Shown here one piece after another: positions 3,133-59,999 of a DNA stretch of 64,000 nt. The notes under the pieces are model-generated. The model saw only the letters and a program-made list of their open reading frames with translations. It was not told where the DNA came from and ran no database searches. Source of the stretch: Sphingobium arseniciresistens. GTDB taxonomy: Bacteria; Pseudomonadota; Alphaproteobacteria; Sphingomonadales; Sphingomonadaceae. The first letter of the stretch is position 1. Every line of letters begins with the position of its first letter. A program made the position numbers and the translations under genes. Location of the stretch: positions 1 through 64,000 of the forward strand of contig JARFNK010000021.1 in the NCBI GenBank assembly GCA_029167225.1, read 5' to 3'.

Positions 3133-4158
3133 CTATGACTTCGGCGTGGATCGTCGCCGTGCAGCGTTATAGATGTCGGCTGCCCATTGCTCGATCCATC
3201 CGGTCGTCATTGCGTCGTGGTCCAGGTCGCCGCTCTCGATCAGACCGCGAATTTGGGAACGCGCCTGAGCAATCGCGGCCTCCCAGGAGTCATATGATCG
3301 AACCGGGATGGGTGATGCATTCTCGGCGGGCAGGTGCCGAACGGGTTCGGACAGGCGCATGAGCTGCTGGCGTGTCCAGACCTCCATGTGCTCGGCCACC
3401 AGCGTATCGGATTTCGACACGCAGCGTCGGTAAGCGTCTCTGCGGGCTGCGATGCCATAGGCCTGACTGTCGATCGAGGCGATCCGCCCCTCAAACGCGG
3501 ACAGGTATTGAAGCGCGGAACCTTTCACTCCGAAGGCGTGGAGCCTGACGGCGGCTGGGAGGATGCGGTCCAGATGTTCTACGACCGCGACCAACCCTTC
3601 CGGTCCGCCGATCTCCCGGCGGCACATCGATCCGACACCCAATATGGCGCCGGGACGGATCGAGAGCCAGAGCGCGTCGACGCACCGTTCATAATCGTCC
3701 GGGCGCCGGCCTTGAAGGACCGGCATGAAGCGACTGAGCAGTCCGAGATCGGCGGCACGGTCGCGACAATCCCGGTTGGCACGGATCGTTCGCGAGATCC
3801 GGTCAAGCACCTCTTCCCTGTCCGAGGCGATCTCATGCTCGGTGCAATAATCGAGGCTTGCGATGCGGCGAAACGGGAATGCCTGAGCAAGACGGAAATA
3901 GTCGTCGATGCTCCACGGAAATCCCCGGTATCTGGCCATCGCCACGAAGCCGGCGCTGTCGAGGTCGAGCGAGGCCAATCCCTCTGCGTTGGCGAGCTGG
4001 GCCAATCGCCATCCGGTCCATTCTCGCCATCCTCGTCGACTGGACCAGGAAGAAAGGGCGTTGGCGGAGATCAGGGTGGGAAGTTGCAAGCGGCGGGCCC
4101 TGGCAAGGATGGGTCCCTCGTTCAGGTGGGGCAGCCCGATGACGATCTCGATGGGCAT
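3133..4158 (-). CDS. DpdA-like tRNA-guanine transglycosylase-family protein
   Basis: Probable TIM-barrel protein related to queuine tRNA-ribosyltransferase. DpdA relatives exchange a base for a 7-deazaguanine derivative in DNA. Family-like landmarks in order are ASLDYCTEHEI (the acidic/Cys stretch of the active-site region), a GVGSMCRR strand-loop, LHAFGVKG and SIDSQAYG near the end of the barrel. The CxCxxC zinc site of classical tRNA-guanine transglycosylases is absent, which fits a DNA-type or divergent member. I chose the ATG at 4158 because GAGG lies 5 nt upstream; another ATG lies 15 nt further out. It sits among element-maintenance genes, with no preQ0-pathway partners (queC/D/E-like) nearby. 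Substrate and DNA target are not deducible from sequence alone. Confidence 0.65.
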   Translation of the reverse strand: MPIEIVIGLPHLNEGPILARARRLQLPTLISANALSSWSSRRGWREWTGWRLAQLANAEGLASLDLDSAGFVAMARYRGFPWSIDDYFRLAQAFPFRRIASLDYCTEHEIASDREEVLDRISRTIRANRDCRDRAADLGLLSRFMPVLQGRRPDDYERCVDALWLSIRPGAILGVGSMCRREIGGPEGLVAVVEHLDRILPAAVRLHAFGVKGSALQYLSAFEGRIASIDSQAYGIAARRDAYRRCVSKSDTLVAEHMEVWTRQQLMRLSEPVRHLPAENASPIPVRSYDSWEAAIAQARSQIRGLIESGDLDHDAMTTGWIEQWAADIYNAARRRSTPKS

Positions 4159-4295
4159 GAAGGCCTCGATCATGAAGGAGGCAGAGGCAGGCGCGATCGG
4201 GCGCCGTCACGGAGCCGAGGCGTTCGGGACCGACCGTTCCGTTGTCGAGCGGGGGCGAGCAAGCCGGGGACAGCTTGCCTAGCGAACGCAATACG

Positions 4296-7705: not shown

Positions 7706-8220
7706 GGATAGTGTCCATTGAACGGACCCGATCAAGGGCCCCGCCCCTTGATCCCACTCCCCTCTCCGATCCTTATGGTTGGAGCGTCCAGCATCTCGCG
7801 CGGATAAGGCTCGATCAGTCCCGGCGTAGCTCGAAAACGACGGGACCGGCCCCGACAGATCGATTAAGGACAAAATGTTACAAGAACGCCGACTACGAAC
7901 TGTCATGCTGGGCATTCCACGAGCGGAGCATGGACATGATCACGCGACAGTCATCAGGCGAGACCATGATCGCAGCCTGGAATTGGAAGCCCGCGATACG
8001 GTACTGTCGCAGGCTTACCGTTTGTTTGTTCAGGTCTCTGATGTCACGGGCGATATTTAGTCAGAAGATAACCCGTCCGATTCGTGGGCAACATATGGCC
8101 TCTGCACCTTTGTTCAGGCGATGGTGCTATCGCCCAGTGATTATTTCTGCGTGTGTCAATGAGCATCGGCATCCTGCGCGACCGGATCTGTCCGCTCCAG
8201 CGCGGGCGAACAGGTGATCT
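7706..8220. other. Intergenic region between maintenance genes and lasso locus
   Basis: The 515-bp region lies between divergent genes: the primase-like gene leaves to the left and the MarR-like gene to the right. It should hold both promoters. A weaker purine-rich leader copy lies at 7750-7767. Short open frames here have no ribosome-binding site or protein-like composition. I see no RNA gene. Confidence 0.4.
7750..7767 (-). promoter_or_regulatory. Shared purine-rich leader motif, copy 3 (weaker)
   Basis: Minus strand GGAGAGGGGAGTGGGATC, 45 nt before the primase-like start codon. It resembles the copies before the ParB-like and helicase genes in sequence and in distance, although less exactly. 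Confidence 0.4.
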
Positions 8221-8616
8221 ATGTCATGCATGCTCCCCAGCGTCTTCGCGGCAATTGACCGGTGCGCCATGATCAGCTTGGCAGCACACGCACACCGCTT
8301 GATGGGGCAACAATTCGGTCGAGACCTATTTGCGCTTCCCGCGCTTGAGATGCTTTTCGATCTCTATGTAGGCAAGGATCGCAAGCCGCGTTCCTTGACG
8401 GGTCTTTGCACGGCGACGAATGCAAGCGAGCGTACAGCGCTCAGAATCATTCACAGGATGGTCAAGGGCGGATTGCTATCGCTCGCACCCGATCCTCAAG
8501 ACGCGCGCCGGATGAATGTGGAACTCTCATCGCAAGGGATTCAAATGCTGGACAGCTATTTTGATGGATTGGTCAGCTTGCTCGGGAGACCGGAACTCCT
8601 GGAGTCTCGACGGTGA
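8221..8616 (+). CDS. MarR-like winged-helix regulator
   Basis: A 131-aa protein with a winged-helix layout. LPALEMLFDLYVGKD leads into a helix-turn-helix around SLTGLCTATNASERTALRIIHRMVKGGLLS, followed by a wing (PDPQDARRMNVELSSQG). It is distantly MarR-like, with a short C-terminal dimerisation helix. AGGTGAT sits just before the ATG. It lies immediately upstream of the ECF sigma factor of the lasso locus on the same strand, so a role in controlling that locus is plausible but inferred only from position. Similar regulators occur beside sphingomonad sigma/FecR/TonB sets, to my knowledge. Confidence 0.7.
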   Translation: MSCMLPSVFAAIDRCAMISLAAHAHRLMGQQFGRDLFALPALEMLFDLYVGKDRKPRSLTGLCTATNASERTALRIIHRMVKGGLLSLAPDPQDARRMNVELSSQGIQMLDSYFDGLVSLLGRPELLESRR

Positions 8617-8792
8617 GCGGAGAGCCGGGACGCGAAATGGATTGCGCCTCTCGCCGTGGCTTGCATCCGACACGGATCTAATGCAGATTTCGAGAGCAGC
8701 GCGGATCATCAGGCCGGGGGCCGCCTGTAGGATTGACCTGGCGGGACATCATTGGCGCCCATCCATGACGGTTGGGATTGCACGTCTTACTT

Positions 8793-8823
8793 TGAAACCC
8801 GCCGCCCCTGGGTGGCCGTCTCG
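8793..8823 (+). promoter_or_regulatory. Candidate ECF sigma-dependent promoter
   Basis: TGAAACC at 8793-8799 is followed, after 17 bp, by CGTCTC at 8818-8823. This matches the general ECF pattern of a GAAAC-type -35 and a CGTC-type -10 with 16-17 bp spacing. It lies just before the sigma factor gene, as expected for autoregulation. Transcription would start near 8830, which argues against the upstream-most start codons of the sigma gene. Confidence 0.4.
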
Positions 8824-8862
8824 TGGTATTTTACTCACATGAACTTCGCGGTGCGCGTCGTC

Positions 8863-9438
8863 ATGCGCCCACTCGAGGCGTGGTTTGAGACCATGCTTCA
8901 CCCAAACGACGGCGGCCGTTGTCGCCACGCCGAAGGCCGCGCCATCGGGCGCGATCAGCTCGATTCAATCTATCGGGTCGAGGCGCCAAAGCTGCGAGCC
9001 CTGCTCCGGGCGAAGGTCTGGCTCGAGGACGAACGCGCCGACCTCGTGCAGGAAGCCTTTGCGCGCCTTGCCGCCTCGCGATCCTCAGCAGCGCAGGAAA
9101 ATCCCGGCGCCTATCTTCAGGGCATATTGCGGCATCTGCTTGCCGATCGCGTCCGGCGCTGGTCGAAGACCAGGTCACTCGGCGAGGCGGATCTCGCACT
9201 TGGTCGCGAGCCGCTTGGTCCTGACGCGGCCGCAGAGATAAGCCAGATGCAGGAACGGTATCGGGCGGCCGTCGAGTCCCTCCCTCCCAAGACACGCGAG
9301 GTCTATTTGCTACACCGAGTCGAGGACATGGAATATAAGCTGATAGCCGCCCGGCTCGGCATCAGCATTCGCACCGTCGAATGGCATGTGGCCCAGGCGA
9401 TCATTCGGATCAGTAAAAGCGTCGGCAAGGATGGTTGA
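8863..9438 (+). CDS. ECF RNA polymerase sigma factor (FecI-like)
   Basis: Sigma-70 family protein with region 2 (DLVQEAFARLAAS...AYLQGILRHLLADRVRR) and region 4 (LPPKTREVYLLHRVEDMEYKLIAARLGISIRTVEWHVAQAIIRI, including the helix-turn-helix). It would direct transcription of the FecR/TonB receptor genes downstream when a ligand is sensed. The reading frame is open further upstream. I chose 8863 because a candidate promoter ends at 8823, leaving a short leader; 8839 or 8893 are alternatives and none has a strong Shine-Dalgarno. It overlaps the FecR gene by 8 bp, a typical sigma/anti-sigma pairing. Confidence 0.85.
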   Translation: MRPLEAWFETMLHPNDGGRCRHAEGRAIGRDQLDSIYRVEAPKLRALLRAKVWLEDERADLVQEAFARLAASRSSAAQENPGAYLQGILRHLLADRVRRWSKTRSLGEADLALGREPLGPDAAAEISQMQERYRAAVESLPPKTREVYLLHRVEDMEYKLIAARLGISIRTVEWHVAQAIIRISKSVGKDG

Positions 9439-10525
9439 AGGTGAATTGCCCGAAGGTCCGCCTCGGCGAGACCAGTTGCTGGAAGAGGCGTCCTTCTGGT
9501 TCGCCCGCATGCGCGCGCCCGATGCGGAACAGCACCGTGCGGCCTTTGAGCATTGGCTGAAGCTCGGAGCGGCGCATCGCGGTGCCTATAACCGTGCCGG
9601 GGAGATTTTTGCGGTCGGAAAGTTTCTTGCCGAAGAAGCCAAGGGCTCATCGGCGAACGGGGCCGAGGAGCAGCCGGCGGCCAATGACGATGCGCCGTCG
9701 CGCTGGCGCTACGCAGCGATGGTGGCCTGCCTGTTCGTGGTTGTCGGCCTGGGCGCATGGTTCAGCCAGGGTATCTTGTCGTCCTTCATTCTCCCGAAAG
9801 AGCAGTTAGCGACGGTCCCGAATACGTCAGCGGTGGCGGCTGCTGATCGCAAAGTGTTTTCGACCCGGAGTGGTAAAAGGGACATGGTGAGGCTGGCCGA
9901 TGGCTCGACGGTAACGCTCGAGGGTGGCAGCGCGCTCGTCGCGCTGTTCGACAGCCATAGGCGCGAGCTGCGCTTACAGACAGGGCGTGCCCGCTTCGAG
10001 GTCGCGCATGAGTCGCGTCCATTCATCGTATTTGCCGGCGACGGCAGCGTCACGGCGCGTGGAACGATCTTCGACGTGATTGTCGGCCAGGATAATCTGG
10101 TGACGGTGCGCCTGCTGCGTGGAGCGGTCGACGTGGAGCGTCCATCGGGGCCGGGCAGTGCGGGCAAGGCGAGTCAGCCGGCGGTAACGCGGCTGGCTCC
10201 CGGCGAGGAATTGAGCTTTGGCCTGGCCGCGATCCCTGATCTGACCGCGGCCCCGCGCATTCGAGCCGAGACGTCTTTCGCCACGCCGCTGTCCACCCCG
10301 ATCCTCAAGGAATTCGACCGGGCGCCCTTGTCCGAGGTGATTGCGGAAGCGAGTCGCAGTTCGGGCATCGCGATCCGCGCGGGCGACTCTGGAGTGGGCT
10401 CGCTGGCGGTCTCAGGCCGGTTCCGCGTCGATGACCCCGAGCAGGTCGCCGAACGGCTTGCGAGCCTTTTCGACCTGAAAGTCGACCACACGCGACAGGA
10501 TGAAATCGTCCTCCGGGCTAAATAG
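9431..10525 (+). CDS. FecR-family anti-sigma/sigma regulator
   Basis: Inner-membrane signal transducer of about 364 residues. The N-terminal FecR cytoplasmic domain (EEASFWFARMRAPDAEQHRAAFEHWL) is followed by one membrane span (AAMVACLFVVVGLGAWF). The periplasmic FecR domain follows (VRLADGSTVTLEGGSAL, RELRLQTGRARFEVAHESRPFIVFAGDGSVTARGTIFDV), and then a C-terminal STN-like region (FDRAPLSEVIAEASRSSGIAI). It holds the sigma factor until the TonB receptor signals. ATG at 9431 overlaps the sigma gene and follows GGCAAGG. A 97-bp gap separates it from the receptor gene and could hold a second promoter. Confidence 0.88.
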   Translation: MVEGELPEGPPRRDQLLEEASFWFARMRAPDAEQHRAAFEHWLKLGAAHRGAYNRAGEIFAVGKFLAEEAKGSSANGAEEQPAANDDAPSRWRYAAMVACLFVVVGLGAWFSQGILSSFILPKEQLATVPNTSAVAAADRKVFSTRSGKRDMVRLADGSTVTLEGGSALVALFDSHRRELRLQTGRARFEVAHESRPFIVFAGDGSVTARGTIFDVIVGQDNLVTVRLLRGAVDVERPSGPGSAGKASQPAVTRLAPGEELSFGLAAIPDLTAAPRIRAETSFATPLSTPILKEFDRAPLSEVIAEASRSSGIAIRAGDSGVGSLAVSGRFRVDDPEQVAERLASLFDLKVDHTRQDEIVLRAK

Positions 10526-10622
10526 CAAGAAATTTATCGGAGCCACCCCGTAGATTGCAGTTTTGTGGCGATGCTCCCTGAAAGTCCCGTCAAATTGGCG
10601 GAATTGACCAAGGGGATCATCA

Positions 10623-13220
10623 ATGGGGGTAAAGGCGATCGGCATTCGGGGGCGACTGCTCGTGGCGGCGGCGATGGGGGCGATGGTCATCGCCACGCCG
10701 GCCATGGCGGACGATGGTCGTCGGCAGGACTATAATGTTGAGGCCGGCGATCTGGGAGACGCCCTACGCACGGTCAGTCGCCAGTCGGGCCGCGAGATAA
10801 TTTTCAGCGGGAAGGCCGTCGCCGGCATGAGAGCCCCGCGCCTCCACGGCTCCTTCAGCGCGGACGAGGCGGTCAGGGCGTTGCTCGCCGGCACCGGCCT
10901 GATCGCTGAGTTCCGAAAGGATGTCGTCATCATTCGGGGGCGATCCGAGGCGTCGGGCGAGACAAGCGATCGTCCGACGGAAGTTCAAGACATCCTGGTG
11001 ACTGGCTCTCGAATTCGCGGCAGCCAAGGGACAAGCCCGGTCATAAGTGCCACACGCGAGCAAGTGTTGTTGAGTGGACAGTCAGGCCTCGGCGACTATA
11101 TTCGGAGCATCCCACAGAATTACAATGGCGGACAGAATCCGAGCGTCGCCGGTGGCGGGAACCAGGGCGGCAGCAACAACAATGTCAATGGATCATCCAA
11201 TCTAAATCTTCGTGGTCTGGGTGCCGATGCGACGCTGACATTGATAAACGGCCACCGCGTCGCCTATGACGCCGTCGGCGCCGGTGTAGATATTAGTGCA
11301 ATCCCGTTGGCCGCAGTCGACCGTATCGAAATCGTCGCAGATGGCGCATCGGCGATATACGGCTCGGATGCTGTTGCCGGCGTGGCAAATGTCCTGCTGC
11401 GGCGTGATTTCAACGGTCTGACAACATCCGCACGTATCGGCGGATCTACCGAGGGGGGCAATTTCCAACAACAATACGATCTGGTGGGCGGCAAACGCTG
11501 GGGATCTGGCGGCGCTCTGGTCGCGCTCGACTTCTCGCGCAGTACCGCGATCAACGCCAGCGACAGGTCGTATACGCGGCAGATTGATGGAAGCACCACC
11601 CTTTATCCCAAGCTCAAGCAATATTCGGCGGTTTTGGCGGGCCATCAGGCAATCGCGCCGGGCGTTACGCTCGAGATCGACGGGCAATATAGCCATCGGA
11701 CGTCCGAGGTGAATTTCCCTTATCTCCCCGACAAGGACGTGACGGTTGAAGGATTGCGTTCACAGCCTACTGTCGAGTCTTATTCGATCACACCCACTCT
11801 TCGGATCTCGCTCCCTGCACGTTGGCAACTCTCCCTCTCCGGCACACATGGTCAGAGCAAGTCTCATCTGCTCTCTCATATCTATTCGGGCGGTGAGGAG
11901 CTTGCGCTTATTGGAATTCAATACGATGGGCGGATCGATTCTGGGGAGATAAGCGGTGAAGGTCCCCTCGCTCAATTGCCCGGAGGCGAGCTTCGCTTTG
12001 CCGTAGGGACTGGCTATCGTTCGGTAGGTCTCGATGCGTCGTCGCGCCGGACGCTTTTCGGTACGACCACGACGACCCTGGATATCTCGCCGATCCGCGA
12101 GAATTACTATGCTTACGGCGAACTCTCGATTCCGCTGGTCGGCCCCGAAAACAGCAGGCCGCTGCTAAATCGGCTCCGGCTTACGGCTGCCTCGCGGTAC
12201 GAGAACTATCGCGGCGTCGGCGATCTCGCCACGCCGAAATTGGGCGTGATCTACGAGCCACATCGCGCGATCGCAATCAAGGCGACGTGGGGCAAATCCT
12301 TCAAGGCGCCGACGTTGTTCGAGCAGTATCAGGCGACCCAAGGTACACTGATCCGGGGAACCGGGTTCCAGAACAACCTCGGCGGACGGCCAGCGCTTCT
12401 ACTCTATGGTGGCGGTCGCGATCTCGGCCCGGAGAAAGCGACAACCTGGACGACCTCCGTGGAAGTCAAACCCCTTCCCGGATTGCGCATCGAGGCCAGC
12501 TATTTTGACGTGCGATTTCGCCAACGGATCGTCGAAGCGATCGGCGACACGAACCGCGCGTTCGGCAATCCGATGTTCGATGGCCTCATTCTCTACAATC
12601 CATCCGAGCAGCAGGTTCTCGCGGCGCTGGCCACGCTCGATACGCCGCTCCTCAATGCGAGTGGCCAACCGCTGAACGCGGCAAACATCAGCGCGATCTT
12701 CGATGATCGGCTCCAGAACATCTCCCGGCAGCATACGCGGGGCGTCGACCTGTCGGCGTCCTACGACCGCGAATTCGGACCGGGCGAGCATCTCAATCTC
12801 ATGGGGTCGGTCAGCTACCTCGAGGGCAATCGGCAACTCAGTCCAGGACAACCAACCACGAAGTTGGTGGGGCGGATATTCAATCCGCCGCATTGGCGAG
12901 CCCGAGGCGGCGTGAACTGGACGCAGCGCGACGTCACATTCGCAGGTTATGCAAACTATACGGGCGGAACGAACGATGATGTGATCCTTCCAGCGGAAGA
13001 TGTCGGCTCATTTACTACGGTCGATGCTACCATCCGGTATGCGCCCAAAGGAGCACAAGGCGTTTTGCACGGGCTCGAATTGGCGTTGAGCGCGACGAAT
13101 ATCTTCAACGAGAAACCATCGCCGATCCGTACCAGCGATCCGATCGCCATCCCCTATGACAGCACGAACACGTCAGTAACGGGCCGGGTCATTAGCTTCA
13201 CGATCACAAAGAGCTGGTAA
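10623..13220 (+). CDS. TonB-dependent outer-membrane receptor with STN signalling domain (lasso locus)
   Basis: An 865-aa outer-membrane transporter. A signal peptide (LLVAAAMGAMVIATPAMA) is followed by a secretin/TonB N-terminal domain (DYNVEAGDLGDALRTVSRQSGREIIFS, about 35-110) that contacts the FecR protein, then the TonB box region (VQDILVTGSRI). The plug follows (LNLRGLGADATLTLINGHRVAYDA, DRIEIVADGASAIYGSDAVAGVANV) and then a beta-barrel ending in an aromatic residue (ITKSW). In characterised sphingomonad lasso loci, receptors at this position are thought to import the lasso peptide. Its stop codon overlaps the next ATG (TAATG), so the isopeptidase is translationally coupled. A paralogue lies in the second sigma/FecR set. 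Confidence 0.9.
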   Translation: MGVKAIGIRGRLLVAAAMGAMVIATPAMADDGRRQDYNVEAGDLGDALRTVSRQSGREIIFSGKAVAGMRAPRLHGSFSADEAVRALLAGTGLIAEFRKDVVIIRGRSEASGETSDRPTEVQDILVTGSRIRGSQGTSPVISATREQVLLSGQSGLGDYIRSIPQNYNGGQNPSVAGGGNQGGSNNNVNGSSNLNLRGLGADATLTLINGHRVAYDAVGAGVDISAIPLAAVDRIEIVADGASAIYGSDAVAGVANVLLRRDFNGLTTSARIGGSTEGGNFQQQYDLVGGKRWGSGGALVALDFSRSTAINASDRSYTRQIDGSTTLYPKLKQYSAVLAGHQAIAPGVTLEIDGQYSHRTSEVNFPYLPDKDVTVEGLRSQPTVESYSITPTLRISLPARWQLSLSGTHGQSKSHLLSHIYSGGEELALIGIQYDGRIDSGEISGEGPLAQLPGGELRFAVGTGYRSVGLDASSRRTLFGTTTTTLDISPIRENYYAYGELSIPLVGPENSRPLLNRLRLTAASRYENYRGVGDLATPKLGVIYEPHRAIAIKATWGKSFKAPTLFEQYQATQGTLIRGTGFQNNLGGRPALLLYGGGRDLGPEKATTWTTSVEVKPLPGLRIEASYFDVRFRQRIVEAIGDTNRAFGNPMFDGLILYNPSEQQVLAALATLDTPLLNASGQPLNAANISAIFDDRLQNISRQHTRGVDLSASYDREFGPGEHLNLMGSVSYLEGNRQLSPGQPTTKLVGRIFNPPHWRARGGVNWTQRDVTFAGYANYTGGTNDDVILPAEDVGSFTTVDATIRYAPKGAQGVLHGLELALSATNIFNEKPSPIRTSDPIAIPYDSTNTSVTGRVISFTITKSW

Positions 13221-15319
13221 TGGCGGCGGTTCCGGCCGGTCTCGGCATAGGCATGGCCGCGTTGCTTGGCTTGGCGTTTCCAGCAAACGCCAGCGAGCGT
13301 TGCGCGGGAATTTTGCCCGGCCCCAGCGCGCCGGATAAGCTTCAGCGGCCGTTGGAGCCGATCGACCTTGTCCGGCTGCGCGACATAGGAGCAAGCTACA
13401 CGGTCCCGTCGAGTGCAAAAGCATTCTCAATATCGCCCGACGGCAAGCGCGTCGCCTTTCAGATCCGTCAAGCAGACCCTGGCTCGAACGGTTATTGCCT
13501 CACCATGGTTGTCGTGGATTTGCGGCACGGGTCGCTGCCTAAGATCGTTGACAGCGGTGGCGATTATATCCGCTGGAGCTTTGAGTTCCGTGGAAAAGCG
13601 GGGTTCCCATCTGGTCTACCGGTCACCGTCACGCCACATTGGTCACCTGATGGGCGATGGATCGCATTTCTAAAGAAAGTTGGATCGACGACCCAAGCCT
13701 GGCTTGCGCGGACGGATGGTAGCGGGAGTTCAGCAATTACGAAGGCGTCCACCGATGTCGTCGATCTGGGGTTCGCCGCAGATGGTCGCGGGATCATTTT
13801 TGCAACCCGGCCCGGCCTCGTCGCAGCCTCTGCGAAGATCGATCAGGAAGCATGGTACGGGTTTCAGTTCGATGACCGCTATTCGCCAATGACCCGGAGC
13901 CGGCCTTTTGCAGTGGGTCCGATGGACGAGGAGTTGTTTGTCCTAGACATCGCGAGCGGGGTGGTTCGGCAGGCCGACGCAGCCGAAAGTCGAGCGTTCC
14001 TCCAGCCTTCCGGCAGCATTCCAGATGCAGTCGAGGTCGCCCTTTCCACTAACGGCAAAGCAGCTTGGGTAATTCCGCCGCAAGGCGACGACTTCTTCTG
14101 GAATCGGAGGTTGGCTTTCCAGGACGGCAGTGGCGAAACGCAGGTCTGCCGAGCGACCCCGTGTTCGTCCTGGGTCAGCAAACCGTGGTGGACAACAGAT
14201 GGCCGTCATGTGCGCTTTTTTCGGCGGGAGGGTTGGGCCGAGAGCGTGACCGCAATCTATGAATGGACGCCGGCTACTGGCCGGCTGCGCCGGCTCTATC
14301 GCACTGAAGATCTCTTGGTGCAGTGCGAGCCTTGGAAAGGCCGGCTGATCTGCCTGCAGGAAAGTTCGATCAATCCCAGGCGGTTGGTCGCTATCGATCT
14401 AGATAGAGGAGAGGCCACGGAGTTGTTCGATCCGAACCCTGAGTTTCTAAACATCAGGCTTGGTGCTACCGAACGCCTTCGTTTCAAGAATGATTTTGGA
14501 ATAGAGAGCTATGCTGACCTGGTGTTTCCTGTCGGGTACGAGCCCGGTAAGAAATATCCTCTTGTCATCGTGCAGTATGAGACACGGGGCTTTCTGAGAG
14601 GCGGGACCGGAGACGAGTATCCGATCCAGGCATTTGCCAACCGTGGATACATGGTTCTCAGCTTCGCCCGCCCTCGCGACATCGGCTATTTTCGTGCAAA
14701 GGACGAAGCGGGGGTCAGCAAGGCTGATACGGAGGATTTCGCGGACAGGAAAAGTGTTCAGTCCTCCCTCAGGGAAGCGATCCAAATTCTCGCTGATCGC
14801 GGGCTGATCGATAGAGACAAGATAGGAATCACCGGACTAAGTGATGGAGCCTCGACCGTCTTGTTCGGCTTGATCAACGATCCGATGTTCGCGGCTGCGG
14901 CGATAAGCAATTGTTGCTTCGATCCGACCTCGATGCTGCTCGTGGGACCGACCGCAACGCGCCATTTCGTCGAGGAGGGATATCCAGCGCCGACCGCGAC
15001 GGCCGACGACTTTTGGAAGCGTATCTCTCTTGCGCGCAACGCCGAGGCCGTCAGAACGCCGATCCTCATGCAACTGTCTGACGACGAATATCTCACCGCG
15101 CTGGAAAGCTACACTGCGCTCAGGCAAGCCAACGGTCCGGTGGAGCTTTATGTCTATCCGGATGAGCACCACATCAAATGGCAACCGGCGCATCGGCTAT
15201 CGATCTATGAGCGCAGCATCGCCTGGTTTGATTATTGGCTGAAGGATATCCGACCTTCGTATAGCCGCGCAGCGACGGAAGTTCCCGGATGGGATCGCCT
15301 ACGAGAGGCACGCCGGTAG
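13220..15319 (+). CDS. AtxE-type lasso-peptide isopeptidase (S9 family)
   Basis: A 699-aa secreted serine hydrolase that cleaves the isopeptide bond of lasso peptides, linearising them. A signal peptide (GMAALLGLAFPANA) precedes a WD-like beta-propeller (repeated SPDGK/SPDGRWIAF units, about residues 70-330) and an alpha/beta-hydrolase domain. The catalytic serine is Ser541 in GITGLSDGAS. A glutamate at 623 (LSDDEYLT) and a histidine at 650/651 (DEHHIKW) match in order and spacing the Ser/Glu/His set I recall for AtxE2. It is coupled to the TonB receptor gene and converges on the C gene with a 21-bp 3' overlap. The presence of B, C and two precursors next door makes the isopeptidase assignment strong compared with a general prolyl-oligopeptidase. 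Confidence 0.9.
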   Translation: MAAVPAGLGIGMAALLGLAFPANASERCAGILPGPSAPDKLQRPLEPIDLVRLRDIGASYTVPSSAKAFSISPDGKRVAFQIRQADPGSNGYCLTMVVVDLRHGSLPKIVDSGGDYIRWSFEFRGKAGFPSGLPVTVTPHWSPDGRWIAFLKKVGSTTQAWLARTDGSGSSAITKASTDVVDLGFAADGRGIIFATRPGLVAASAKIDQEAWYGFQFDDRYSPMTRSRPFAVGPMDEELFVLDIASGVVRQADAAESRAFLQPSGSIPDAVEVALSTNGKAAWVIPPQGDDFFWNRRLAFQDGSGETQVCRATPCSSWVSKPWWTTDGRHVRFFRREGWAESVTAIYEWTPATGRLRRLYRTEDLLVQCEPWKGRLICLQESSINPRRLVAIDLDRGEATELFDPNPEFLNIRLGATERLRFKNDFGIESYADLVFPVGYEPGKKYPLVIVQYETRGFLRGGTGDEYPIQAFANRGYMVLSFARPRDIGYFRAKDEAGVSKADTEDFADRKSVQSSLREAIQILADRGLIDRDKIGITGLSDGASTVLFGLINDPMFAAAAISNCCFDPTSMLLVGPTATRHFVEEGYPAPTATADDFWKRISLARNAEAVRTPILMQLSDDEYLTALESYTALRQANGPVELYVYPDEHHIKWQPAHRLSIYERSIAWFDYWLKDIRPSYSRAATEVPGWDRLREARR

Positions 15320-17098
15320 GTTGATTTCACGATCAATCGGGGCGTTTGACTTGGCCAGCCAATGATCAATCCAGGCTTCGGTATCGAGAAACGCCATGAT
15401 GCGAACATGGGCTCCGCCGAGATCCGGGCGATCATCCGAGAGCGCCGCGTCGAGAGCCGCGGGGTCGGCGATTTCGCGTTCGACCAGATGACCACCGAGG
15501 AGACGGTCCCGTATGGCAGCGCGGTGTCGGGATATGATTGCCTGGCAGAATGCATCCGGCCCTCCTTTCGACTGCCTCGACACGATTGCCTGAGGAAGCC
15601 GATTGGAAAATGCCTGCCGCGCAATCGACCTGTTTTCACCGTTTGCCACCCATTGCCAGGACGGAATGCCAAGGCAGCATTCGATGACAGGCTGACTCAT
15701 CAAGGGATTGACGATAGGCGGCGCTGCTGTTGGGTCCATTCCGTCCAACTGCTGCTGGATGCGAAGCAGCAACGCGATGTGCCCTGATTTTCCCGGCAGC
15801 GCGTCTCGCGGCGCGATGAGCCAAGGGTGCTGATCGTCTGCTCCATCGAGAACCGCGGCAATGGCAGGATGTAGAAACTCTGGATCGGTGCGCCAGCTAT
15901 AGGCATAGCTCGGGCGTCGCCAGATGCGGTGCGCTGTCAGGAGCGCTTGCCAAAAACTGGCTCCCGAAAGTTTGCAAATGTCCAAAAGGGTTTTAACCGA
16001 ACCAAAAGCCAGCCCCTCGGTTGCGTAACGATCGACGACCGGTGACGCCGAATAGGAGAATGCGAATACATTGTCGCCGCCATTGCCCGTGAATATGGCG
16101 TCTGCTTGGTAATACCGCGCGATCTCCAGGATAGCCGCATCATAGGCCTGAGCCTGAAGCCGGCCTATTGGCCGCGGGAGATGTGCGACGCTGGACACGC
16201 CGAGATCGATCTTATCCAGATCGTGTTTTCGCTCGTCCAGATGCGTGTCGAGTTTTTCGCATAGCGTGCGTGCATAGTATCGCTCGTCACCATCCGGGTC
16301 GTCAGTCGAGAGCGTGATGCAGGAGAGCTTGCGGTTCGCAGCGCGCAAAGCGGCAGCGACAATGGAAGAGTCGAGGCCTCCAGACACGCCAAGCACGATC
16401 CGGTCGAACTGGGAAGATAGGGCGCCGACAGTGGATTGCAGAACCCTTGCCAAGTTCTCCGCATTGGCGTGTTCGGACTGTTGCTCTCCGCGACGGACAT
16501 GATCCCACGGTGTCCAGAGAGTATCGGTGCTGATACCGTCTTGCAGTAGTTGAAAAGCGGTTCCTCTCTGGACCTCGTGCAGACCAACCAGGCCGGTACG
16601 GCCGCTGGGCTGGCCGCCAGAATAAAAGTATCGACTGACGAAGCCCCAATCCACCTGGGGGCGATACAACCCGCTCTCAGCCAGGATCGCTGGGTCGGAG
16701 CCGATTACGCGGCAATCAGGTCGCCCGGCGAAATAGCATGGTAATGCACCCGAAGGATCGCGGATAATTCGAGGACCGCGTTGGTCATCGACAAGTGCAA
16801 CATATCCACCCCAGTAGCGATCGATGAGCGAGGCACCCCCAGTGGCAAGGATGCGCTCAGCCTCAGCGGGCTCGATTGCTTCGATCCGGCGACCGGGTCC
16901 GTGTCGATAAAACAGTGAGCCGAAGATGGCCCCGCATCCATTCGGCAACACCGTCACCAACTGCGGATCAGAGGCAAGAAGAACGGCATGGCGCGCCCGA
17001 TAAACGATAGAGAGACCGATCTGCGGGGGCACGCGCGTCGCGAACAGATCCAGAATTTCTGCGCGACGCGATTCCACAATGAGGTATCGGGGAGCCAT
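15299..17098 (-). CDS. Lasso peptide C protein (asparagine-synthetase-like macrolactam synthetase)
   Basis: A 599-aa protein that adenylates the ring-forming Asp/Glu side chain of the precursor and closes the macrolactam with the new N-terminus. The N-terminal third resembles the glutaminase-like half of asparagine synthetase but lacks the initiating Cys nucleophile (it begins MAPRYL). The C-terminal half has the ATP-pyrophosphatase P-loop SGGLDSS (about 238-244) and the downstream motif FTGNGGDNVF. It overlaps the B gene by 1 bp (TGATG), so the two are co-translated. Together with the precursor and B genes it forms a minus-strand biosynthetic operon in the order A1-A2-B-C. Confidence 0.92.
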   Translation of the reverse strand: MAPRYLIVESRRAEILDLFATRVPPQIGLSIVYRARHAVLLASDPQLVTVLPNGCGAIFGSLFYRHGPGRRIEAIEPAEAERILATGGASLIDRYWGGYVALVDDQRGPRIIRDPSGALPCYFAGRPDCRVIGSDPAILAESGLYRPQVDWGFVSRYFYSGGQPSGRTGLVGLHEVQRGTAFQLLQDGISTDTLWTPWDHVRRGEQQSEHANAENLARVLQSTVGALSSQFDRIVLGVSGGLDSSIVAAALRAANRKLSCITLSTDDPDGDERYYARTLCEKLDTHLDERKHDLDKIDLGVSSVAHLPRPIGRLQAQAYDAAILEIARYYQADAIFTGNGGDNVFAFSYSASPVVDRYATEGLAFGSVKTLLDICKLSGASFWQALLTAHRIWRRPSYAYSWRTDPEFLHPAIAAVLDGADDQHPWLIAPRDALPGKSGHIALLLRIQQQLDGMDPTAAPPIVNPLMSQPVIECCLGIPSWQWVANGENRSIARQAFSNRLPQAIVSRQSKGGPDAFCQAIISRHRAAIRDRLLGGHLVEREIADPAALDAALSDDRPDLGGAHVRIMAFLDTEAWIDHWLAKSNAPIDREINLPACLS

Positions 17099-17754
17099 CA
17101 GAGCGCCAGGATGGGTGTAAAGATACGGACCTGGTCAACCGAATCCGTGAGGATTCGCGATTGGTCCTGAATCCAGCAATGCGCGGTAAAGGGGTTCACC
17201 CGAACCCCGATAACCAGCTGCGGATAATATCCCCGGCGATTGCACATGGAGAGAAAGGCAAGCGATCTTGGCAGGCAAGTGTTCGTGCGGCCAAAGAGAA
17301 AATCGGTTGCGGCAAAAGCGCCGACAACGGCATCGACGTTTGAGCTGGTCCCCGTGCCTCCGGACAATCGGGTAGCGCGTCGTTTCCGAGCGAGATGCCG
17401 ATAGATCCGTGGAAATCCGTTGATCTTCAGGATCAACAGCGCCGACAGTCTTTCAACCGTAGCCAAGGCGATAAGGCCTGCGTTGGCGTCAAACGGTAGT
17501 GCCACGGGCGCGGAGGTGTCTAACGCGTTCGGATGAGATGGAGTGGCAGACGTGACGGCCGCTGGCTGGATCGTCAGGATATTCCGGCACCGGAGCCAGT
17601 CGATCTGCTCGGGATTCGCCGCCCCCCTAACAAATGCCTCGAACGCGGTCTCGCCTGCCGGAGGCAAGCAGAAATAGCGTCCTGCTGCCGCATCGAGGAA
17701 GATCGCTCGGCCGCCGCAAAAACAATGGTGTAGATTTTCGCGGACGGACAACAT
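17098..17754 (-). CDS. Lasso peptide B protein (fused leader-binding domain and peptidase)
   Basis: Leader peptidase of the lasso pathway. The N-terminal part (FCGGRAIFLDAAAGRYFCLP) matches the PqqD-like leader-recognition domain. The C-terminal part is the transglutaminase-like cysteine protease (PF13471 type), with Cys in NTCLPRSLAF (about 159), His in FTAHCWIQ (about 190) and Asp in ILTDSVD (about 202). Fusion of the two domains is the usual proteobacterial arrangement. The start at 17754 (ATG) gives the family-like N-terminus. An alternative TTG at 17829 overlaps the stop of the upstream precursor (TTGA) and would add 25 residues with coupled translation. The product removes the leader after the Thr-x site, supplying the free Gly1 for cyclisation. 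Confidence 0.88.
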   Translation of the reverse strand: MLSVRENLHHCFCGGRAIFLDAAAGRYFCLPPAGETAFEAFVRGAANPEQIDWLRCRNILTIQPAAVTSATPSHPNALDTSAPVALPFDANAGLIALATVERLSALLILKINGFPRIYRHLARKRRATRLSGGTGTSSNVDAVVGAFAATDFLFGRTNTCLPRSLAFLSMCNRRGYYPQLVIGVRVNPFTAHCWIQDQSRILTDSVDQVRIFTPILAL

Positions 17755-17825
17755 CCAGCATGCCCCATTCAAAAATGCGGGCGCTTGCTGGATCCGGCCG
17801 GCAAGCACCCGCACGCGGCGATCGC

Positions 17826-17963
17826 TCAATCCTCGGCGATACCGATACTGGTGCGGAGTCCGCCCATGAGGTCGTCCTTGTTCCCGTCCGGCCCGCGGGT
17901 CAGCTCGGAAACATCACCGAGATCCAGGACGTCCTCGGGCAATGTTTTGGTATCCGTTTCCAT
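17826..17963 (-). CDS. Lasso peptide precursor A2 (45 aa)
   Basis: Too short for routine gene calling, but in the exact precursor position between A1 and B. The leader begins METDTKTLPEDV and carries DLGDVSELTR, with the conserved Thr at the penultimate leader position. The predicted 22-residue core starts GPDGNKDD and continues LMGGLR, ending SIGIAED. Gly1 and Asp8 would form an 8-residue macrolactam (Asp7 is the less likely alternative). The core has the same length and pattern as the sister precursor: Gly1-Pro2, an Asp pair at 7-8, GGLR at 11-14 and IG near the C-terminus. GGAGATAT lies just before the ATG. I cannot match the core to a named lasso peptide from memory. Confidence 0.85.
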   Translation of the reverse strand: METDTKTLPEDVLDLGDVSELTRGPDGNKDDLMGGLRTSIGIAED

Positions 17964-18022
17964 CGAAATATCTCCAGATAGGTTTATGGATCGCCGGGCG
18001 ACTGCAACCGCAGCCGCGCCGG

Positions 18023-18160
18023 TTACTCGTCCGTCAGGCCGATGGTTTGGCGAAGGCCACCGACGAAGTCGTCGCGGTCGCCGGAGGGACCCTTGGTCTC
18101 CTCGACGATCGCGCCGAGATCGATCACGTCGCCGTGTTGCTGTTCGTCATTGCGCTCCAT
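18023..18160 (-). CDS. Lasso peptide precursor A1 (45 aa)
   Basis: First gene of the lasso operon. The 23-residue leader begins MERNDEQQHG and contains DVIDLGAIVEETK, with Thr at the penultimate position as in astexin-type leaders. The predicted 22-residue core starts GPSGDRDD and continues FVGGLR, ending TIGLTDE. Gly1-Asp8 ring closure is predicted. The acidic C-terminus resembles the tails I recall for sphingonodin-type peptides (ending in SDD). AGGAG lies 6 nt before the ATG. An upstream Met at 18250 would give 75 residues but lacks a ribosome-binding site and precursor-like sequence. A1 and A2 are clearly duplicates that have diverged in the ring and in the tail. Confidence 0.87.
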   Translation of the reverse strand: MERNDEQQHGDVIDLGAIVEETKGPSGDRDDFVGGLRQTIGLTDE

Positions 18161-18179
18161 GACACGCTCCTCTTGATCC

Positions 18180-18274
18180 GCCGCGAGAATTCGCGGCAGT
18201 CCAACGGTAACCGAAGCAAATCGGGGAATGGTCGGAATATATCCCGACAAAATGGCGCGGTATCCGTGCGCGCC
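18180..18274. promoter_or_regulatory. Operator-like inverted repeats upstream of the lasso precursor operon
   Basis: Three inverted repeats precede the A1 start. The first is GCCGCGA-GAAT-TCGCGGC at 18180-18197. The second is GTCGGAATATATCCCGAC at 18231-18248, an 18-bp near-perfect palindrome with an AT-rich centre. The third is GGCGCG-N9-CGCGCC at 18254-18274. The region lies between the GntR gene and A1 on the same strand and should hold the precursor promoter. The palindromes are plausible binding sites for the adjacent GntR or XRE regulators. Which protein binds which repeat is unknown. Confidence 0.5.
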
Positions 18275-18337
18275 AACTCAACATTCATCGGGAATGCCTC
18301 CCGAGACAGCGAAGCCAATGTATTCTGCCAGTTTTTC

Positions 18338-18976
18338 TTATGTTGGCCGTTGGTGGCGATAGTCCCTAACAGCTTTTTGACGGTGGATTCGCCGGTCGTG
18401 ATAGGCTTCGATCCGCCGGCGAATGTTCTTTTGGACATCCGTTACGGCGGAGTTGGTGAGGGTTCGCAACTCCCTGGCGGCCTCCTTCGTGTCTGTGATT
18501 TCCAAGATCCTCGGATAGTAAAGCCGCTCGTTCATATTGCGAATTGTAGCGATGGCCCTCGGATTGCCGGTGGCTTGCGCAAACGCCAGGAAGATGGCGC
18601 CGGTGTGGGTCGCAAGGTCAATCGCCGTGGTACCGATCGAAGCGCCGGCGAGGCGGTCGAGGGTTTCCCGGAGCATCGATTCCCGGACGCCATGGACCAG
18701 GCTCAGGATCAGATGCATATTCCAGGCGTAAAGGTCGATGAGATCGTCCGGTCCATCGAACGCAATCCTGAACCCACCGTCGGGATGGGGATCGATCAGT
18801 CCTTCCCCCATCAACCGGCAGGCTGCTTCCCTGACCGGAGTCTTGCTCGACCGATAGCGATCGGCAAGTTCGGGCACATCGAGCTTTTCACCGGCCGAGA
18901 AATGCCCAGCGAGATAGTCCGCTCTCAGCGCCTGATAGACGCGCTCCTGCATGATCGGATCGAACGCCGACATCAT
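18338..18976 (-). CDS. GntR/FadR-type transcriptional regulator
   Basis: A 212-aa regulator with an N-terminal winged helix (QERVYQALRADYLAGHFSAGEKLDVPELADRYRSSKTPVREAACRLMGEGLI) of the GntR type, including the characteristic KTPVREA segment. It has an all-helical FCD-like C-terminal effector domain (residues about 85-200), which would bind a small ligand, often a carboxylate. ATG at 18976 overlaps the stop of the upstream XRE gene (TGATG), so the two regulators are co-translated. It lies directly upstream of the lasso precursor genes on the same strand, with 177 bp between, and is the best candidate for their specific control. Confidence 0.82.
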   Translation of the reverse strand: MMSAFDPIMQERVYQALRADYLAGHFSAGEKLDVPELADRYRSSKTPVREAACRLMGEGLIDPHPDGGFRIAFDGPDDLIDLYAWNMHLILSLVHGVRESMLRETLDRLAGASIGTTAIDLATHTGAIFLAFAQATGNPRAIATIRNMNERLYYPRILEITDTKEAARELRTLTNSAVTDVQKNIRRRIEAYHDRRIHRQKAVRDYRHQRPT

Positions 18977-19392
18977 CAGGCCGGTCCGATCGCAAGGGTC
19001 GGGCCATGCCATATAGGCGTCAGCGCTCTGGTCAGTTGGTTGAGCTTGCGCTCCGCGATCACCTCGATGCAAAGCCGTTCGAGATCGCAGAGGTCGCCGG
19101 CAGCGAGCTGCAATGGATAGGACATGCGTTGGCCGGCAAAGAGGAGCGGTATCAGGATATGTCCGGTCGACAGACCGAGACGATAGGCGCAGATCAAATG
19201 ATCATCGAGAGTAGATTTCGGGTTGCCAGACTCAATTTCCCGCAGCCAACGCTCGCCCATACCAAGTTCCCGCGCTAATTGGCGCTGCGTGAGACCGAGT
19301 TTCTTCCGTGCCTCTTCTATCTGTCGCCCGGACTGCAACTTGACGTGCGAGAGCGGACTTTCAGCAACGGAAGCCGCGCATTCGTGCGACAT
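18976..19392 (-). CDS. XRE-family helix-turn-helix regulator
   Basis: A 138-aa protein with a Cro/C1-type helix-turn-helix (GRQIEEARKKLGLTQRQLARELGMGERWLREIESGNPKS, about residues 22-60) followed by a helical C-terminal region of unknown fold. AAGGAGA lies 8 nt before the ATG at 19392. It is translationally coupled to the GntR regulator. I infer that the pair forms a two-regulator cassette controlling the lasso operon, or was inherited with it. Confidence 0.78.
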   Translation of the reverse strand: MSHECAASVAESPLSHVKLQSGRQIEEARKKLGLTQRQLARELGMGERWLREIESGNPKSTLDDHLICAYRLGLSTGHILIPLLFAGQRMSYPLQLAAGDLCDLERLCIEVIAERKLNQLTRALTPIWHGPTLAIGPA

Positions 19393-19514
19393 TTCCGTGT
19401 CTCCTTACGGGAGATTCCGCCCGCCAAGGCCAATCGAGCTTTTATAGCTAGGTGGACATACCACCATGGTCAAGAAGAACCCCAGCCAAATTGTCGGAAC
19501 TGGAGCGGTCAGGT

Positions 19515-19955
19515 CTATGGAATAGTGCGGTTATTGACCTGCGGGCGTCGCAGCGCGGTCTGAGTGCGCTCAAACGCATCCATGAGATCGGCCCCTCTCG
19601 CGTTGGGCAGCTGCTGGAGCGCGAGGAGATAGATCATGCCCAGAGTCGGCGGTTCGCGGTCAGGCGTGGCACGCTGGATCCGATCGACGATGCGCGAGGC
19701 GATGTCCCATAGCCGCTGCGGCGCGCCGACATGGTGCTCTTCATTGCCGCTCAGCCGCGCTTCCCCCAACTCGCCAAGGCGCTCGACGATGGCGCTCGCC
19801 GGAACGGTGTCGAGATAGTTCACCGCGACATGCAGCGTGGTCCCCCACGCGATGAGGCAGCGAGTCGTGCGAATAAGATGGCAATGCGAGTCGATAAAGA
19901 CATCCATGCCGGCCGGGGACAGCCGGAGTTTGAAGCTGCGTGTTGCTCGGCCCAT
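19515..19955 (-). CDS. Conserved-looking hypothetical protein (146 aa)
   Basis: Not recognised as a named family. A very good AGGAGGT ribosome-binding site 8 nt before the ATG, and balanced hydrophobic and charged composition, argue that it is real. Visible features are a basic N-terminus (MGRATRSFKLRLSP), a His/Cys-rich segment (FIDSHCHLIRTTRC) and a helical second half. It lies upstream of, and divergent from, the conjugation operon, with 350 bp between, where an element regulator often sits, but it has no clear DNA-binding motif. Confidence 0.6.
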   Translation of the reverse strand: MGRATRSFKLRLSPAGMDVFIDSHCHLIRTTRCLIAWGTTLHVAVNYLDTVPASAIVERLGELGEARLSGNEEHHVGAPQRLWDIASRIVDRIQRATPDREPPTLGMIYLLALQQLPNARGADLMDAFERTQTALRRPQVNNRTIP

Positions 19956-20305
19956 CTGCGTTCCACCTCCTCTCTTTCGGTATCTGCCGCCTCTTTGAGT
20001 GCGAAAATCGGTCCATTTTTACGCCAATTTTGAACAAATCGGCACTGAAGTGCCGATCAACGCCATTTCGTGCCTATTCTGCGCCTGACCGCCGTTTGCA
20101 TTCAAATTGCGGACTTTTCAGCTTTCTTTCGCCGGATCGGCACTTCAATGCCCTCCCTATTGCGGACCTTTCGAGGCGCCGTCATTTCTCGTGCCGCACC
20201 GGATCGACGGTCATCGGCAGCCCCGGCTGAAGCCCGAATACAGTCGGTCCGCACCAGCCAACCCGAAATTCAAGCGCCGTCCCGCGCCACGAGGAGACTT
20301 GTCCT
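19956..20305. promoter_or_regulatory. Divergent promoter region upstream of the conjugation operon
   Basis: A 350-bp AT-richer stretch between the 146-aa gene (left) and the first tra-operon gene (right). It contains the perfect inverted repeat at 20038-20057 and a partial copy at 20136-20152. A repeated ATTGCGGAC element occurs at about 20106 and again about 50 bp downstream. No gene was seen. It is the only sizeable intergenic gap before the 25-kb tra operon, so the main transfer promoter is probably here. Confidence 0.5.
20038..20057. promoter_or_regulatory. Operator-like palindrome before the tra operon
   Basis: ATCGGCACT-GA-AGTGCCGAT is a perfect 9-bp inverted repeat with a 2-bp centre. 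A half-conserved second copy, ATCGGCACT-TC-AATGCC, occurs at 20136-20152, 98 bp downstream. Two related sites in the only promoter-sized gap suggest a dimeric repressor of transfer, possibly one of the HTH regulators in the window. Confidence 0.55.
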
Positions 20306-20614
20306 ATGAACATGCGCCCCCATTCCGGGCTTGCCGTGATGCTGCCGCTGGCCCTGCTGGCCGCACCCGCCCAGGCCCAGGACAATCCCCGCGACGCGGA
20401 GGCCTATCCCTGCGATCAGCGCGGCGACCTGACGGTCGTCCAGGATGGTCCGAGCTATTCGATCCGTCCCCGACTGGTCGTGGCGCAGGCCCCCTCGCCC
20501 ACCAACACCACGGCGACCGCGATCTCCATCGGAACCGCCCTCAAGGTCGACTCGCGTATTTTCGCGCAAGCCGGCGGTCTCGTGAAGGAGGCTTCCCATG
20601 CGCCGCGCCGCTGA
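20306..20614 (+). CDS. Small exported protein, first gene of the tra operon
   Basis: A 102-aa protein with a signal peptide (SGLAVMLPLALLAAPAQA) and a short mature part with one Cys (AYPCDQRGDL) and no recognised domain. GAGGAG precedes the ATG. Its 3' end overlaps the DsbC gene by 17 bp, showing that it belongs to the operon. It may be a periplasmic accessory factor of the conjugation apparatus. Function unknown. Confidence 0.65.
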   Translation: MNMRPHSGLAVMLPLALLAAPAQAQDNPRDAEAYPCDQRGDLTVVQDGPSYSIRPRLVVAQAPSPTNTTATAISIGTALKVDSRIFAQAGGLVKEASHAPRR

Positions 20615-21374
20615 GCTGCTTGGCGCGGCGATGCTGGTGCTGGCGACGCCGGCATTTGCCCAAGATGCGCCGGCGGGCCCCGCGACCAGTGAGCCGCTCG
20701 CCGCCGCCGCGGCAGATGCCGAGCGCGAGCTGCGCCAGACCTTCACCAACCTCACCTTCGAGGATTTCGGTCCTGCGCCCGTGAAGGGGCCAATCTATCA
20801 GGCGAGCGCGGGCGGACGCATCATCTATTTCGCGCCGGAAAGCGGGCACCTGCTTTTCGCCGCGGTCTATGACCGCAACGGGCTCAACGTCACCGCCCTC
20901 GCGCAGGATGCCAATGCCCGCAAACGACTCGCCGCGATCGACCCGGCCGATGCGCTGCTGATCGGCCCGGCCGGTGCGCCCAAGGTGATCGAGTTCACGG
21001 ACCCCGACTGCCCCTATTGCCAGGCGCTCGAACGCTTCTGGCTGGCCAAGGCCGCCGAGGGCAAGCCGGTGCAGCGCCTCATCTACTTCGTGAGCGGCAT
21101 CCATCCCGAAGCCGCGGCGAAAGCGGAGCATATCCTCTGCTCGCCCGACAAGGAGGCGACCTTCAAGGCCATCTATGCGGGCGCGAGGCCGGCGACGCTT
21201 CTCAAATGTGCGACCGGGCATGACAAGGTCGCCAAGGATGCGGCCACCGTTCGCAAGATGGGGATCAGCGGCACGCCGACCCTGTTCGTCGACGGCAAGC
21301 TGGTCTCGGGCTTCCAGCAGGCGGAACTCCAGGCCTTTGTCGATCAGAAGGGAAGCGCCGGTGTGCGCCCCTGA
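20598..21374 (+). CDS. dsbC: DsbC-like thiol:disulfide interchange protein
   Basis: A 258-aa periplasmic disulfide isomerase. A signal peptide (LLGAAMLVLATPAFA) precedes an N-terminal dimerisation-like region (residues about 40-120) and a thioredoxin fold with active site CPYC (in FTDPDCPYCQAL). The cis-proline loop is ISGTPTLFVDG, and a second Cys pair (HILCSPDK, LLKCATGH) is typical of DsbC/G. It would isomerise disulfides in the Cys-rich transfer proteins encoded downstream (TraU, TraN, TraH). A dedicated DsbC is common in F-type operons. Confidence 0.88.
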   Translation: MRRAAELLGAAMLVLATPAFAQDAPAGPATSEPLAAAAADAERELRQTFTNLTFEDFGPAPVKGPIYQASAGGRIIYFAPESGHLLFAAVYDRNGLNVTALAQDANARKRLAAIDPADALLIGPAGAPKVIEFTDPDCPYCQALERFWLAKAAEGKPVQRLIYFVSGIHPEAAAKAEHILCSPDKEATFKAIYAGARPATLLKCATGHDKVAKDAATVRKMGISGTPTLFVDGKLVSGFQQAELQAFVDQKGSAGVRP

Positions 21375-57256: not shown

Positions 57257-57350
57257 GGATCGCCTCGTCAAGATGATAAATCTGTTGAAATTCAAAACGT
57301 ATCATCGGGGCTGGAAAATAATTCCGCGCCCCCGATGATAGTGGATTACG

Positions 57351-59912: not shown

Positions 59913-59999
59913 AATCGTCCCCCTTGCGAGATCGGCATCAAATGCCTTCAATTCGCAAGAGTCCCGGCAACGACGCTTCCTTAGCGGACGCGGAAAAAA

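Follow-up and report, generated by a model that had tools for sequence, protein, structure and literature searches.

The window analysed here, a 64,000-nucleotide stretch of Sphingobium arseniciresistens DNA, carries an isopeptidase-type (benenodin/subterisin) lasso peptide system with a known gene set, headed by two tandem precursor genes, A2 and A1, and by a leader hairpin that covaries across the family (Table 1). Very likely, the locus yields two lasso peptides that the cell takes back up and linearises, as part of a feedback loop linked to a conjugative element. Judging from the gene families named below, the GntR-family regulator, together with a conserved promoter and leader, would drive an A2-A1-B-C operon; B would cut the leader off after Thr(-2), and C would link Gly1 to Asp8, turning each 22-residue core into a lasso peptide with an 8-residue ring. 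A dedicated TonB receptor would import the lasso peptide, the isopeptidase E would linearise it once imported, and the sigma/FecR pair beside the receptor would tune the uptake genes, closing the loop. The proposed module lies in the F-type transfer region of the element, next to dsbC.

Table 1. Features of the lasso locus and of other regions of the window
Feature	Position	Strand	Remarks
DpdA-like (deoxypurine in DNA) protein	3133-4173	minus	
Sigma-70-family sigma factor, FecI-like by position beside FecR	8752-9438	plus	family model
FecR-type anti-sigma regulator	9386-10525	plus	family model
TonB-dependent outer-membrane receptor	10623-13220	plus	family model
E, Atxe2-type lasso isopeptidase	13220-15319	plus	NF033523 814 bits, cut-off 400
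C, asparagine-synthetase-like lasso cyclase	15299-17098	minus	SGGLDSS ATP site; PF00733 83.1 bits, cut-off 21
B, leader peptidase (Transglut_core3)	17098-17829	minus	NF033537 82.7 bits, cut-off 33; Cys185 and His217 (TTG numbering)
A1, lasso precursor, second in operon	17826-17963	minus	45 aa; core GPDGNKDDLMGGLRTSIGIAED; PF24178 37.0 bits, NF033522 38.2 bits
A2, lasso precursor, first in operon	18023-18160	minus	45 aa; core GPSGDRDDFVGGLRQTIGLTDE; PF24178 54.8 bits, NF033522 51.3 bits
Predicted A2 mRNA leader hairpin	18178-18199	minus	core stem GCCGC/GCGGC, 17 nt ahead of start codon
TANNNT box (TACCGT), candidate -10 element	18204-18209	minus	predicted transcript start about 18200
Conserved upstream box, candidate GntR site	18236-18259	minus	CGCGCCATTTTGTCGGGATATATT; conservation in relatives
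GntR-family regulator, upstream of precursors	18338-19072	minus	Pfam
HTH regulator	18976-19392	minus	Pfam; homolog beside two lasso-free dsbC regions too
ORF146, 146-aa protein, conserved beside cluster and dsbC	19515-19955	minus	no Pfam family
DsbC-type protein, start of divergent F-type transfer region	20598-21374	plus	Pfam
Second sigma factor (60968-61543), FecR, TonB receptor and Atxe2-like protein	54938-61543	minus	Atxe2-like protein 175 bits, cut-off 400

The sequence-only reading had proposed two tandem lasso precursors with predicted 8-residue rings, encoded by two 45-aa ORFs ahead of B and C. Both points were borne out, by the family models, by the neighbouring B, C and Atxe2-type isopeptidase genes and by a near-invariant acid at core position 8. 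A1 and A2 each scored above the curated cut-off in the NCBIfam (benenodin NF033522, 33 bits) and Pfam (Subterisin PF24178, 27 bits) libraries, and the order on the minus strand is A2, a 59-base gap, A1, B and C. Residues 1-122 of B, where the leader-binding (RRE) domain should be, gave no family match in NCBIfam or Pfam, and no convincing solved structural relative of B was found. C scored far under two curated lasso/macrolactam cyclase models (39 bits against 525 for NF033535; 82 against 300 for the other). E matched the AtxE2 structures (5TXC, 5TXE) over residues 40-698 (472 bits, E-value 1.9e-140 for 5TXC) with the catalytic motifs GLSDG and EHH kept. The cognate peptides of AtxE2 have 9-residue rings. 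A GntR homolog lies within 4 kb upstream, on the same strand, of at least 72 of the 99 C homologs in the genus, a lower bound drawn from 95 rows with those weaker than 8.2e-11 left out. The genes scanned between 8752 and 19955 include no ABC transporter or exporter. This layout is typical, since it matches the order of the isopeptidase clusters known to a review (PMC9266682, in the portion available), with GntR ahead of the precursor and the receptor and sigma/anti-sigma genes past the isopeptidase.

A second uptake set near the far end of the window has no A, B or C genes among the ORFs listed around it, and its Atxe2-like protein has GFSRT as serine motif instead of GLSDG. This set resembles the uptake half of a lasso cluster, either altered or copied as a receiver only. 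Elsewhere on the conjugative element lies a gene for a DpdA-like protein.

The A1 and A2 precursors are 44% identical. Their leaders carry the motif DLG...T(-2) and end in Thr(-2)-x, after which Gly1 starts the core. As first read from the sequence, both cores have Gly-Pro at positions 1-2, Asp at position 8, GGLR at positions 11-14 and acidic ends; Asp also occupies position 7 in both. We compared them with 55 other cores, selected from the fetched loci on three criteria (leader motif, Gly1, core length) with positions 7-9 unconstrained; 12 chance leader-like ORFs were left out, and the filter also missed the precursor of N. percolationis (L070; leader EFG, acid at position 8). Some of these loci were collected with the Subterisin model, a possible bias towards the usual pattern, and others through C homologs. 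GGLR is absent from all 55 (NGLR occurs in two), GG stands at positions 11-12 in 13, and the last residue is acidic in 53. Neither core is a described peptide as far as we could find, in agreement with the first reading: the strings GPDGNKDDLMGGLRTSIGIAED and GPSGDRDDFVGGLRQTIGLTDE had zero matches among 5.39 million open-licence papers, and none of the 55 cores is identical to either. A search for precursor A2 in phages gave no match. The cores are new; the peptide family (subterisin, benenodin) is well known.

Because the family conserves an acid at position 8, Asp8 is the expected ring residue despite the Asp at position 7. Acids over the 55 other cores number 54 at position 8, against just 8 at position 7 and 9 at position 9, so that predicted Gly1-Asp8 rings are well supported for A1 and A2. 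The calculated lasso masses are 2212.043 for A1 (m/z 1107.029, 2+) and 2286.088 for A2 (m/z 1144.051, 2+). Rings closed at Asp7, with seven residues, are highly improbable on these counts, although both cores offer Asp at 7 as well as 8 and, according to the available part of PMC11006600, the ring-closing residue of a lasso peptide may be the 7th, 8th or 9th.

Among the systems compared, subterisin (PF24178) shares with A1 and A2 the precursor family, the leader, the Gly-Pro start and the acid at position 8; it differs in its tails and in having Glu at position 8, where A1 and A2 have Asp. Five of the eight residues of the A2 ring, GPSGDRDD, recur in GPPGDRIE, with which a core from locus L027 begins; we take that core to be subterisin's. 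The benenodin-1 family (NF033522, with BenE) has a similar gene set with isopeptidase, and both precursors pass its model; the benenodin-1 core sequence differs from those of A1 and A2. The source of subterisin is Sphingomonas subterranea (PMC9266682, available portion). By layout, the nearest of the described systems compared is sphingocin of Sphingomonas BPH, as given in the accessible text of PMC11006600. Like A1 and A2, its 45-aa precursor has a GP start, GG in the loop and an acidic end, and its operon likewise lacks an exporter and has isopeptidase and TonB receptor genes divergent, but it has one precursor and a different core, GPGFINNDGVGGKLPFAGLSDD. The same text links the sphingocin B gene to phenanthrene use. 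On pCHQ1 of Sphingobium indicum UT26S, the order is the same as here, with tra genes and dsbC and, divergently, a hypothetical gene, HTH, GntR, A, B and C; opposite A-B-C lie an isopeptidase (unannotated, found by tblastn), a receptor, FecR and sigma. pCHQ1 differs in having one annotated precursor and a C protein 33% identical to that of the window. A phytanoyl-CoA dioxygenase gene and an acyl-homoserine-lactone synthase gene lie a few kb from its lasso cluster. The lasso clusters on the plasmids of Novosphingobium sp. PP1Y and sp. ES2-1 have as neighbours GntR, a phytanoyl-CoA dioxygenase gene, an acyl-homoserine-lactone synthase gene and a further gene of LuxR or autoinducer-binding type.

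The DNA upstream of A2 is conserved in relatives and includes a palindrome whose position, just ahead of the ribosome site, is common to precursor mRNA leaders. Of 58 discovery-set leaders, 50 have a hairpin whose end lies 10-28 nt ahead of the start codon (A1 is among the eight failures), as do the leaders of 12 out of 13 first precursors from named plasmid loci (two of the 13 encode one and the same peptide); dinucleotide shuffles gave such a hairpin in 559 of 3550 cases. The score threshold was fixed after seeing the discovery set and before the leaders of the 13 plasmid loci. We then aligned 68 leaders by sequence only (70 references minus the downstream copies in L013 and L015; the A1 leader was excluded). 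RNAalifold gave five pairs, four of them with two-sided changes, and 96.1% of cells were paired. Two-sided changes occurred in 54 cells, compared to 14.9 in shuffles, and covariation was 0.538 compared to 0.276; none of 500 shuffles reached either value. Two other measures, pairs showing a two-sided change (4 vs 3.5) and further pair types (11 vs 9.1, reached in 31 of 500), did not clearly exceed the shuffle control. When the partner was slid by one base, 17-22% of cells were paired, and 25-39% when slid by two; slides of +3 and -3 left 66% and 58% paired, with at most 21 two-sided changes and a covariation of 0.160. Rfam 15 had no match at the gathering threshold in 8000-20500.

A TANNNT box stands 5-9 nt ahead of the stem in 42 of the 68 leaders (6-7 nt in 40), whereas 200 letter shuffles averaged 7.7 and never exceeded 15. 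Given such a -10-like box, usual promoter spacing puts the transcription start at or near the stem. Most likely, then, the A2 transcript begins at a short stable hairpin directly ahead of the ribosome-binding site, and the hairpin would protect the 5' end of the mRNA. No clear -35 box appeared in the profile of the 42 leaders anchored on TANNNT, which is AT-rich at -52/-51 and at -30 to -27 before the box. These positions fit the upstream box as a candidate GntR site, a fit that falls short of proof. The pattern CGCGCCATTTTGTCGGGATATATT, drawn from this site and its relatives, has one match with up to three mismatches in the window, where 0.01 is expected. Neither the tra nor the receptor promoters of the window carry a further copy of the upstream box, and co-control of tra by it is therefore unsupported. 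No earlier description of the covarying leader hairpin was found in the open-licence literature searched, and to that extent it counts as a new regulatory part of this lasso family; a report may be in print in the subscription journals, most of which lie outside that set.

A covariance model built from the leaders found, as its five best matches in the 6.6 Mb genome, the five lasso loci, all of them in the training set. The sixth-best match (C49:16217-16267, E 0.016) has no precursor in the adjacent ORF list. Across 94 genus genomes, the model gave 65 matches at E ≤1e-4, of which 58 adjoin the start of a precursor found by the protein model, 33 of these outside the training loci; the other 38 of the 71 precursors outside the training loci were missed at this threshold. 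Two of the seven remaining matches are precursors known from training loci (L042, L044), and one lies beside a GntR gene. These counts hold for E ≤1e-4 only; many weaker matches had no adjoining precursor, some of them in precursor-free genomes. The leader hairpin may help to find precursors missed by the protein model, with G424:C36 as a candidate.

From 20598 onwards, dsbC and the transfer genes run divergently from the lasso cluster. TraE, TraC and TraG-type genes were identified by family models, which marks an F-type conjugative element; traL, traK, traB and traV were named by position and by their matching order in pCHQ1. No end overlap that would point to a closed circle was found for the 95,661-base contig C35, to which the window belongs. 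The 94 genus genomes have 93 dsbC homologs; for 59 of these a precursor lies within 6 kb, always in divergent orientation, and the distance is 1.9-2.6 kb in 57 of the 59 linked pairs. Conversely, such a dsbC accompanies 60 of the 107 precursor places. For this count the A1 place was left out and three precursor places were entered manually: L042, L044 and G424:C36, the last of which was deduced from a leader-model match beside a GntR gene. Random placement would give about 0.3 dsbC-precursor pairs; the rows share descent, hence the comparison does not amount to a significance test. In the same genome, contigs C40 and C32 show the same transfer-region arrangement, each with its own lasso cluster, and C39 and C2 carry tra genes and an HTH gene, and no lasso genes turned up in the 14 kb fetched. 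Proteins 27-72% identical to ORF146 occur next to dsbC in five more transfer regions with lasso genes; none was detected beside the two lasso-free transfer regions of the same genome. A link between lasso clusters and conjugation in sphingomonads was not reported in the titles and abstract starts listed by searches of the open-licence literature; subscription journals are mostly outside this set, and such a report may be in print. The accessible text of PMC6771000 just lists lasso clusters, with no conjugation link.

The genome as a whole (6.6 Mb) has six Subterisin-model precursors and five C homologs; its stated contamination is 6%, and a second organism could contribute to these numbers. 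Four further lasso loci, on contigs C1, C12, C32 and C40, encode four different cores. Five C matches at E ≤1e-60 occur in only one other of the 94 genus genomes (G473). For several C homologs the listed match contains stop codons, which may reflect match overrun or decayed copies. Over 19,797 bases the locus agrees with DNA of Novosphingobium naphthalenivorans NBRC 102051 with 0 mismatches, and a near-identity search of plasmids with 8700-20000 gave no match.

We also compared the window gene by gene with the loci on C40 (L038) and in N. percolationis (L070). The traL to traV proteins are 68-92% identical, DsbC 75-83%, HTH 78% and ORF146 60-72%. Identity is lower for GntR (43-58%), B (31%), C (38-43%), E (43-48%), the receptor (45-55%), FecR (49-58%) and sigma (51-66%), with the minimum around the precursor in both comparisons. 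The lasso genes are thus more diverged than the adjoining tra genes. C32 (L037) shows no such peak (tra proteins 55-78%, DsbC 70%, HTH 38%, ORF146 27%, GntR 31%, B 36%). Faster evolution of the lasso genes, swapping, or selection for new specificity may each be responsible and would look alike here.

Several features of this locus can be read in another way. A1 might be a degenerating or silent tandem copy, leaving A2 as the only working precursor. It scores below A2 with PF24178, lacks the standard hairpin at the standard place and a copy of the upstream box, and the upstream DNA kept in relatives corresponds to that of A2. The A2-A1 gap also folds (-25.2 kcal/mol), farther from the start than the family hairpin, and was not counted as one. 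Moreover, a motif search of the fetched stretches, with L070 read separately, found one precursor upstream of C per relative. Against this, A1 retains the leader motif, Thr(-2), Gly1, Asp8, a GGAG ribosome site and an open frame, and its stop overlaps the listed TTG start of B (an internal ATG, MLSVRENL, is a possible alternative start). Tandem precursors also recur: 8 of 67 matching genomes, counted by eye, have two places within 1 kb, Novosphingobium resinovorum has two precursors and Caulobacter sp. FWC26 has three. We consider a degenerating or silent A1 quite unlikely. It appears somewhat unlikely that the palindrome in the leader acts at the DNA level, as an operator bound by GntR or the HTH protein. 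Dyad symmetry and the adjacent regulators would fit an operator, and paired changes could also arise in co-evolving operators, but across the 68 leaders the arm distance varies (6 nt in 30, 7 in 11, 8 in 17, others in 10) and the arm sequence changes while pairing persists. The palindrome also lies downstream of the -10-like box and adjoins the ribosome site, and a separate conserved box is already present upstream. These features favour an RNA hairpin.

The neighbourhood itself could reflect one plasmid lineage that carries the cluster along with no role in transfer, and here we regard the case as evenly balanced. The rows compared are related by descent, so the 59 linked dsbC homologs are not independent; the other 34, including those on C39 and C2, have no precursor within 6 kb; and the upstream box is not repeated at the tra promoters of the window. 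On the other hand, spacing and divergent orientation are kept while the linked dsbC spans 60-81% identity. Of the eight records in a plasmid collection whose dsbC is 60-80% identical, seven have a C homolog at a distance of 3.0-3.7 kb from it (Rhizorhabdus wittichii DC-6 is absent from the 37 plasmid records with a C match), and an MPF_T plasmid of strain PP1Y has its lasso cluster between the trb genes and traG.

To our knowledge, the purpose of isopeptidase-type lasso peptides is not established. In the portion of PMC9266682 available, they are without known antimicrobial activity, astexin-1 excepted. The loop may serve scavenging, housekeeping or conjugation. One conjecture, which we consider unlikely, is that a benenodin-type lasso peptide is a cell-to-cell signal of the conjugative element: each F-type transfer region would bring its own peptide, receptor, isopeptidase and sigma pair, by which a donor would sense if its neighbours already carry that element and adjust transfer. 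If true, such signalling would explain the recurring place next to dsbC, the general lack of antibiotic activity and the different lasso set in each of three transfer regions of one genome. The recurring tra-adjacent position offers a concrete hypothesis, testable by knock-out, on the purpose of isopeptidase-type lasso peptides.
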